Both the position numbers and the translations under genes were made by a program. Of a DNA stretch of 64,000 nt, positions 14,838-16,756 are shown in pieces. The stretch spans positions 248,001-312,000 of the forward strand of contig NZ_CP022112.1 of NCBI RefSeq assembly GCF_000730165.1. Direction: 5' to 3'. The stretch is from Nitrospirillum viridazoti CBAmc. GTDB taxonomy: Bacteria; Pseudomonadota; Alphaproteobacteria; Azospirillales; Azospirillaceae. A model generated the notes under the pieces. That model saw nothing but the letters and a program-made list of their open reading frames with translations, was not told the DNA's origin and made no database searches. How positions within the stretch are numbered: position 1 is the first letter of the stretch; each line of letters starts with the position of its first letter.

Positions 14838-15017
14838 GGGGGCTCTCCGTGGACAGGGGCTCCTGGTTCGATACGAGCGGCGGGCGGCCGGGGCAAGGGC
14901 GGGATTGTCTGGGGGACAAGGTTTGGGGGAGATAATGGTGAAAAGAGCTTCGCGGGATCCGATTTTATTTGGCCGCCAATGAGTGTGGAAAGAAAATACC
15001 GGTCATGACAGGCGGCT

Positions 15018-15917
15018 TCACATATTGTCGTACTCGACTTGATAATCATGTTCGTATAAGTCGTGTAGATTGGTCGATTCTGTTTTTGTAAAATGAGTCT
15101 TAAGTCCGGCGTGGGCAATCTCCTCAATGCTTGAGAGGGACAGACCACAAGATTTGCATAAATATGAAACTGAAATATATTCAACGATCATGTATAGATC
15201 GCCGTCAACATATTGCTCTTGGAGCTCTTTGTATTTTTTACCGATTAGAGATGCCTTTCCACCGCAAGAAACGCAAGTGCATACTTCTTGATTGCTCGCC
15301 GGAAACGCCAATGATAATTCAGATGTTCTTAAAACAGACTCTTTTTCTGAAGGGGATTTGCTGGAAAATACCTTGCTATGGGCGTTTATTTTTTCTCTAA
15401 CCGTCTTAAGAACACTTGCATTCAGTGTTTTGATCATCTCGGCAGCCATGCTGGCTCCGTCTGGCCCTAGGAAATGCTCCAGAGGCTTCTCTAAATGATC
15501 ATGCAAGATGCGGATTGTGTCGTAGAATCTCGCAAGCCACTTGTCAGTAGAGAGACCTTCATATGGAAGATCGGCTGTGTGTACGTGTGCATTCCGCTGA
15601 AGCGCTAAAAATTCACAAAGTTCACGGTGCTGGCTCTGGAATGATTTTATGATCTTTTCGAGTCGTATAAAAACAGAATGTGCAGGTAGTGAGCGCGGTT
15701 TGGCGAGTGAATATCCGCAAGCGTAGAGGATGTTAGAATCGTCCCGAGGATCTGCATTAAGTACCGGGTGAATCTTGGTAAGCGCACTTCGTCCTAAGCA
15801 TTCAATAGAAAGTGATGCAAAGAAAGCAAACGCTGATGATGCTTGATCATGCTCTCCAGCTTGATCCATAAATAACTTGGCCTTTTTCCAAAGACCCTCT
15901 GATTCCCAAGACTGCAT
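15018..15917 (-). CDS. Unknown protein with HEPN-like helical part and C-terminal zinc ribbon
   Basis: I do not recognise this 299-residue protein by name. Its N-terminal half is helical and has a hydrophobic helix (SAFAFFASLSIECLGRSAL) followed further on by LALQRNAHVH, where Arg108-x4-His113 fits the RX4-6H motif of HEPN ribonucleases. The C-terminal part has two cysteine pairs, CVSC (215-218) and CKSC (254-257), the layout of a zinc ribbon. The ATG at 15917 is chosen for its strong GGGGGAGA site 7 bases upstream; the frame extends 60 bases further without support. It begins one base after the stop of the dioxygenase gene, with its ribosome-binding site inside that gene, so the two are cotranslated. 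Base composition is clearly more AT-rich than the surroundings, suggesting transfer. Confidence 0.7.
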   Translation of the reverse strand: MQSWESEGLWKKAKLFMDQAGEHDQASSAFAFFASLSIECLGRSALTKIHPVLNADPRDDSNILYACGYSLAKPRSLPAHSVFIRLEKIIKSFQSQHRELCEFLALQRNAHVHTADLPYEGLSTDKWLARFYDTIRILHDHLEKPLEHFLGPDGASMAAEMIKTLNASVLKTVREKINAHSKVFSSKSPSEKESVLRTSELSLAFPASNQEVCTCVSCGGKASLIGKKYKELQEQYVDGDLYMIVEYISVSYLCKSCGLSLSSIEEIAHAGLKTHFTKTESTNLHDLYEHDYQVEYDNM

Positions 15918-15918
15918 C

Positions 15919-16569
15919 TTAGTCTCCCCCCACAAGGATGCGCTTAAGCAAGCGATCGGGATCAGGTTGCACCGCATCTCCGCGCGCGTGCACCATCCGG
16001 TAATTGTCTATTGTAAGAAGACTTCCAGCTTTCCAGTCAATCCTTATGCTTGGCTGGATGCCGATCCGGCCTTCTAGTAACTCCTTCAACTGATAAGCTT
16101 CGGCGGTCATTGGGCGCATACAATCCATATCGTATCTAATGGTCAATCGGCCGCTTGAACGCGTAGCGATGGTAGCCAGTCGCGGTCGGCGGTGGCCTAC
16201 AGCCCATAGCGCTCGGCAAGCAAGGTTCTCTTCGGCATCGTCTAATTGCCATAAACGGGAGTCCTGTAAAAATGTCGGTCGCATACCCCTGCCTGGTGAG
16301 ACGCAGAATAGTAGCAGGTAGCGTGCTGGCTGTTCCCAGTGCGCTGTGTCGGTGTGAAATGGGAAGCAGCCAGTGCCATACCTGCTCGACAGTGTGTTGG
16401 ACTTGGCCGTCTGAGCAGTTTGTGGCCGAATAGCGCGAATCGGCTCTGGGCTCCGCGCATCCACTCTGATTGAGCCAAGTTGCTGAACAAGACCGATCAC
16501 ATCATTTTCATATATGCTGCTAGTGAGGCAGAAGCCGTTTTCCTCAAGTGCTTCGAAGTCCAAGGTCAT
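15919..16569 (-). CDS. TauD/TfdA-like Fe(II)/2-oxoglutarate dioxygenase, short form
   Basis: This 216-residue protein carries the facial triad of the clavaminate-synthase/TauD superfamily: His72-x-Asp74 in CFPFHTDTAHW and a distal His194 in IDNYRMVHARG, followed by Arg196, which in the family would help bind 2-oxoglutarate. It is 60-80 residues shorter than TauD itself, lacking much of the N-terminal region. Such enzymes hydroxylate or decarboxylate small molecules, amino acids or peptides; the substrate is not evident. It is the first gene of the AT-rich two-gene cassette and ends one base before the HEPN-like gene. No strong ribosome-binding site is visible ahead of the ATG. Confidence 0.72.
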   Translation of the reverse strand: MTLDFEALEENGFCLTSSIYENDVIGLVQQLGSIRVDARSPEPIRAIRPQTAQTAKSNTLSSRYGTGCFPFHTDTAHWEQPARYLLLFCVSPGRGMRPTFLQDSRLWQLDDAEENLACRALWAVGHRRPRLATIATRSSGRLTIRYDMDCMRPMTAEAYQLKELLEGRIGIQPSIRIDWKAGSLLTIDNYRMVHARGDAVQPDPDRLLKRILVGGD

Positions 16570-16756
16570 AGTCGTGGGCCTATTTCAGTCGAAGTCTAAA
16601 GTTTATGGCCGCATTTCAGATTTATCGGGCCGCCATGTGACAAATGTTTTTGGAAATTTCATTTCCGATCACATCGTTCTTCTGAAGACGCCGAGTATTG
16701 ATACTTATTTTCTAAGAATATAAGCCGCACACGCCTGTCTCTAATTTGTTGAACGG

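Follow-up and report, generated by a model that had tools for sequence, protein, structure and literature searches.

A mobile two-gene cassette coding for a TauD-fold 2-oxoglutarate oxygenase and a predicted HEPN RNase

HEPN RNases are common effectors in bacterial immunity, and few enzymatic antitoxins are described. The survey of the HEPN superfamily from 2013 defines it by two motifs, Rx4-6H, in which the arginine is followed by N, D or H, and Ex3[KR], and nowhere mentions an oxygenase (PMC3710099). In the HEPN-MNT (HepT-MntA) system the MntA protein AMPylates HepT at Tyr104, and the enzymatic antitoxins named together with it are TomB and TakA (PMC7641770). TomB acts by promoting the oxidation of cysteine in Hha, and the paper does not call it a 2-oxoglutarate (2OG) oxygenase (PMC5155140). 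The papers retrieved for HEPN in combination with TauD, dioxygenase or 2-oxoglutarate were all unrelated, and none of those found describes the pairing of an oxygenase with a HEPN protein. This agrees with the original prediction, which knew of no system with such a composition, and the pair is apparently undescribed.

The cassette analyzed here comes from Nitrospirillum viridazoti CBAmc and lies in a stretch of 64,000 nucleotides, the window. Two open reading frames one base apart had been claimed, and both were recovered on the minus strand: gene 1 at 15919..16569 (ATG at 16569, stop at 15919, 216 amino acids) and, following it, gene 2 at 15018..15917 (ATG at 15917, stop at 15018, 299 amino acids), separated by the single base 15918. 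A Shine-Dalgarno-like sequence, GGGGGGAG, can be read within the end of gene 1 (15924..15931, minus strand), 6 nt upstream of the gene 2 ATG. The composition is foreign, as had also been claimed; the cassette has a G+C content of 47.7%, compared with a mean of 68.7% in the window (SD 3.9, stretches of equal size), and the third-position G+C of the two genes is 0.40 and 0.55, far below the 0.92-0.94 of the adjoining genes. The host genome has a single copy of gene 2. The cassette is found in an inserted AT-rich segment (14935..16756) at a variable site flanked by a GNAT gene and the gene for malate synthase G; only the flanks, not the segment itself, align with sister species.

The gene 2 protein was modelled with AlphaFold2 from a 64-member alignment (mean pLDDT 93.2), and the conservation counts given below for both proteins come from an alignment of 66 non-redundant relatives. 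A Foldseek search against the PDB had the HEPN domain of sacsin as its top two matches (probabilities of 0.96 and 0.94); HEPN toxins stood lower, and the E-values are weak, about 0.5 and above. In VIA-align, whose Z scores may lack specificity for helical bundles when under about 13, the top rows are all HEPN (sacsin 11.0, TT1696 10.5, ST0689 10.1, SO_3166 about 10), followed by further HEPN-MNT toxins at 8.4-9.2, by Csm6 and AbiV at 5-7 and by unrelated rows mostly at 4.3 or lower. The assignment to HEPN is made in spite of these Z values because the list of matches is specific to HEPN and because the motifs are conserved. The HEPN domain (residues 3-145 from the VIA-align model ranges; 15483..15911, this and all following positions in the two genes being on the minus strand) contains an Ex3R motif (residues 39-43; 15789..15803) with E and R/K in 66/66 relatives, and the RNx3H motif RNAHVH (residues 108-113; 15579..15596) with R in 65/66 and both N and H in 66/66, the sole exception at Arg108 being locus L010. 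The protein combines a predicted HEPN helical fold, Rx4-6H with a polar residue after the arginine, and Ex3[KR]. Downstream of the domain follow a zinc ribbon (residues 210-283; 15069..15290), whose Cys215, 218, 254 and 257 are each found in 66/66 relatives and which has a beta hairpin in the model, and a disordered C-terminal tail (residues 290-299; 15021..15050; pLDDT 57 in the last block) in which Asn298 is Asn in 63/66. In a close clade this last block ties for the lowest variability of the whole protein.

A profile of 64 gene 2 relatives matched no significant PDB sequence, so that the fold rests on structure comparison and motifs. Scans of the protein against Pfam, NCBIfam and PADLOC gave no meaningful match and no covering family; PADLOC 2.0 has no profile matching either cassette protein, and nothing useful was matched in the viral structure library. 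Relatives of gene 2 match HEPN_Apea weakly, and likewise DUF3644 (best E 0.003), itself a HEPN family, which agrees with the assignment. By its predicted fold and its motifs the gene 2 protein is a member of the HEPN superfamily, and it is probably a metal-independent RNase.

Gene 1 codes for a TauD-fold Fe(II)/2OG oxygenase (Pfam PF02668, 48.6 bits with a cut-off of 27; model pLDDT 95.8). The HxD iron-binding motif formed by H72 and D74 (16348..16356) aligns with H99 and D101 of E. coli TauD, T99 (16273-16275) with T126, H194 (15988-15990) with H255, R206 (15952-15954) with R266 and R210 (15940-15942) with R270; in TauD these residues serve binding of iron, 2OG and substrate. The active-site residues are conserved in the alignment of 66 relatives, with D or E at position 74 and R206 in 65/66. 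Gene 1 has what characterizes the TauD/TfdA proteins, i.e. the HxD/E...H triad, the Thr and Arg which bind 2OG, and a double-stranded beta-helix fold. The closest solved structures are the amino-acid oxygenases KDO1, AsnO, clavaminate synthase and VioC, and a clavaminate synthase-like profile matches (E 1e-17) together with the fold, at 216 amino acids compared to about 315-360. Judged from alignment and model, the gene 1 protein is a minimal 2OG oxygenase whose active site is intact and which is related to amino-acid hydroxylases. The features which the original prediction had read in the two proteins, namely an Fe(II) facial triad (H72, D74, H194), an RX4H motif (Arg108/His113), a HEPN-like character for which a structure prediction was proposed as the check, and a two-pair zinc ribbon (Cys 215/218 and 254/257), have all been recovered.

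The two genes hardly ever part. The oxygenase gene is found immediately upstream of the HEPN gene in 79 of 80 genome loci, where it shares the strand of the HEPN gene, in 15 of 15 plasmid loci and in 4 of 4 viral contigs; among the 111 loci measured, the genes overlap by 4 nt (spacing -4) in 65 and by 8 nt in 17, and the two far outliers are broken copies. The reverse search, with the oxygenase subfamily defined as matches above 150 bits (the next matches were below 80 bits), found the subfamily in 11 sampled genomes, nine of which have the HEPN gene, while one locus is cut by a contig end and one is a truncated relic; no intact member of the subfamily was seen without the HEPN gene in the sampled genomes. 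The distances among oxygenases and among HEPN proteins correlate with r 0.91 (66 pairs), a value to be compared with permutations that never exceeded 0.22. The survey of conserved pairing that had been called for thus came out in favour of the original prediction, and on the three points that could have spoken against it the predicted fold is HEPN, the Arg/His pair is conserved and the dioxygenase nearly always co-occurs.

Relatives with about 24-35% identity are carried by plasmids of Acinetobacter, Shinella, Ketogulonicigenium, Bradyrhizobium, Sinorhizobium, Pseudomonas, Agrobacterium, Streptomyces and Paracoccus, and genome relatives come from many Pseudomonadota and from records labelled cyanobacterial, planctomycete, acidobacterial, verrucomicrobial and Microbacterium. 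Scanning genome and viral contigs with a single protein gave no relatives, and an alignment-based search was needed. The presence is patchy (4/82 genomes in the order sample, 6/385 in the class, 7/398 in the phylum). Paracoccus, Brucella and Roseinatronobacter carry copies with 98-100% identity to the protein of Ketogulonicigenium, which shows recent transfer between orders. The cassette is a conserved, mobile and near-obligate two-gene module.

At the site between the GNAT gene and malate synthase G the sister species carry different cargo, and sometimes almost nothing. One cargo (L126:709-2511, minus strand) codes for a 600-aa protein with a weak match to ApeA (PADLOC E 3e-7), an RNx3H motif of its own (RNNLVH) and no Pfam match; another is an ATPase matching HEC-04 (E 2e-203), and a third is a RelA/SpoT-like and endonuclease segment. 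The site (14935-16756 in the window; L126-L129 and L131) is a cargo hotspot in the genus, with different genes in each species, and its cargo at L128:3380-4360 (plus strand) is a 326-aa protein matching neither Pfam nor PADLOC. On plasmids the annotated neighbours of the pair are TrlF ATPases, a Gabija-like pair, SIR2, AbiE, AbiV, AbiH and VapBC. Neighbourhoods in genomes include GajA-like, DUF3644 and other defence-type matches, recorded as occurrences and not as an enrichment; a third gene constantly beside the pair was looked for in these neighbourhoods and not found. One viral contig has the order major head, tail sheath, pair, tape-measure gene; in two related contigs the pair precedes the same tape-measure gene, and in a fourth it is near a tail protein. 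Among 50,697 deposited phage genomes there were no relatives, though IMG/VR contigs carry the pair.

Some further observations on neighbours may be recorded. A TrlF-family AAA-like ATPase gene adjoins the pair on three plasmids (L008, L013, L014), upstream in two and downstream in one. At several rhizobial and related loci a gene of about 640-680 codons lies downstream of the pair on the plus strand (about 9015-11050 in L032, L035, L038 and L040; 9333-11249 in L033), and five members of the neighbour set, probably these genes, match HATPase_c_3. In L018, L019 and L020 (IMG/VR) the pair stands upstream of the tape-measure gene beside other variable genes, possibly a cargo site.

The reading we prefer, with a probability of roughly 0.7, is that the cassette is a mobile conflict module serving anti-phage defence, possibly of a toxin-antitoxin type, in which a HEPN RNase effector is controlled by a dedicated oxygenase. 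It is supported by the conservation of both active sites, the near-obligate pairing and the correlated divergence (r 0.91), and also by the variable site with its ApeA-like and HEC-04 genes, the defence neighbours on plasmids and the location among phage structural genes. The RNase activity, its target, the direction of control, the tail as a substrate and phage defence are drawn by analogy. The most economical model for the control would be enzymatic modification of the effector, in analogy to the MNT antitoxins, which AMPylate HEPN toxins, and to the oxygen-dependent Hha-TomB. The oxygenase would hydroxylate the effector, most plausibly at the near-invariant Asn of the disordered tail, which is the obvious candidate substrate since the structural relatives of gene 1 hydroxylate amino acids; the zinc ribbon may position the RNase on an RNA or ribonucleoprotein target. 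Loss or change of the oxygenase activity in infection or stress (a phage factor, or a shift in iron, oxygen or 2OG) would then turn the RNase on. Control could also have the opposite direction, the modification licensing the RNase. The conservation of the disordered tail would be in keeping with its modification. That hydroxylation of this particular Asn constitutes an immune or toxin switch dependent on oxygen, iron and 2OG is a speculative proposal, which we put forward while holding it to be doubtful.

Some copies of the cassette are broken, in either of the two genes. HEPN is damaged with the oxygenase kept in L010 (R to Q), L015, L016 and L099, and the HEPN motifs are intact with the oxygenase broken or absent in L009, L023 and L073. 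The latter three argue against a constitutively lethal toxin, unless sequencing errors account for them, and to that extent they weaken the reading we prefer. They speak for an alternative which we regard as possible, if not our first choice: a sensor-effector defence in which the effector is not modified. The oxygenase would here sense a phage product, or make a hydroxylated amino acid, nucleotide or RNA mark, and in either way activate or guide the HEPN RNase, and copies that lack the oxygenase suggest that the HEPN protein alone is not lethal. The relatives of the oxygenase act on free amino acids, and its dN exceeds that of the HEPN protein in 17 of 17 tested pairs of loci, which suits a sensor; a higher dN is often seen in sensors. 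The alternative leaves the conservation of the HEPN protein's tail unexplained. In the clade examined the dN excess of the oxygenase is concentrated in its N-terminal third.

It is unlikely that the cassette is an addiction module of plasmids and prophages, i.e. a toxin-antitoxin pair with a role in maintenance rather than defence. Carriage by plasmids and phages and the coupling of the genes with the partner first would fit, but chromosomal copies are many, and the intact HEPN motifs of the three loci without an intact oxygenase are at variance with it. An ordinary metabolic or regulatory pair, in which a non-catalytic HEPN-fold protein binds RNA and regulates a small-molecule hydroxylase, could appeal to the frequency of TauD-type oxygenases in metabolism and to the existence of non-catalytic HEPN domains (PMC3710099), but is very improbable in view of the RNase motifs retained in 65/66 relatives, the lack of a constant metabolic neighbour, the patchy presence and the location on plasmids, in phages, among defence genes and at a variable site, and the simple metabolic pair offered earlier as an alternative is accordingly disfavoured.

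If the conflict-module reading is true, an enzyme which uses oxygen and 2-oxoglutarate would control this immune or toxin system. A dedicated 2OG oxygenase as near-obligate partner would bring a new control chemistry and tie immunity to the metabolism of oxygen and 2OG. It would also account for a family that carries no annotation beyond "hypothetical protein" on Acinetobacter, Pseudomonas, rhizobial and Streptomyces plasmids.

Among known systems HEPN-MNT, a type VII toxin-antitoxin system, resembles the cassette in having two genes, a HEPN protein whose fold matches that of the gene 2 protein (VIA-align Z 8.4-10.6) and an enzyme as partner. The partner there is the MNT nucleotidyltransferase, whereas here it is a TauD-fold 2OG oxygenase. 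The gene 2 protein has extra helices and the zinc ribbon, and the tyrosine of the toxin motif RX4HXY is absent from its family, position 115 being G, A, S or E in 66/66. Membership of HEPN-MNT was rejected for want of this tyrosine and of an MNT partner. ApeA, AbiV, DUF3644 and other HEPN defence proteins have the fold and motif in common with gene 2, and an ApeA-like gene occupies the site of the cassette in a sister species, but these proteins differ in having no family-level sequence match and different extra domains. To our knowledge they have no oxygenase partner. Gene 1 has the fold and active-site layout of clavaminate synthase, AsnO, VioC and KDO1, but is shorter by about 100 residues or more and is coupled to a HEPN gene. 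Hha-TomB, to which the cassette is likened by description, is a precedent for a toxin under oxygen-dependent control by its partner (PMC5155140). Hydroxylation of the tail, as proposed above, would follow a logic similar to that of the Asn hydroxylation of HIF by FIH.
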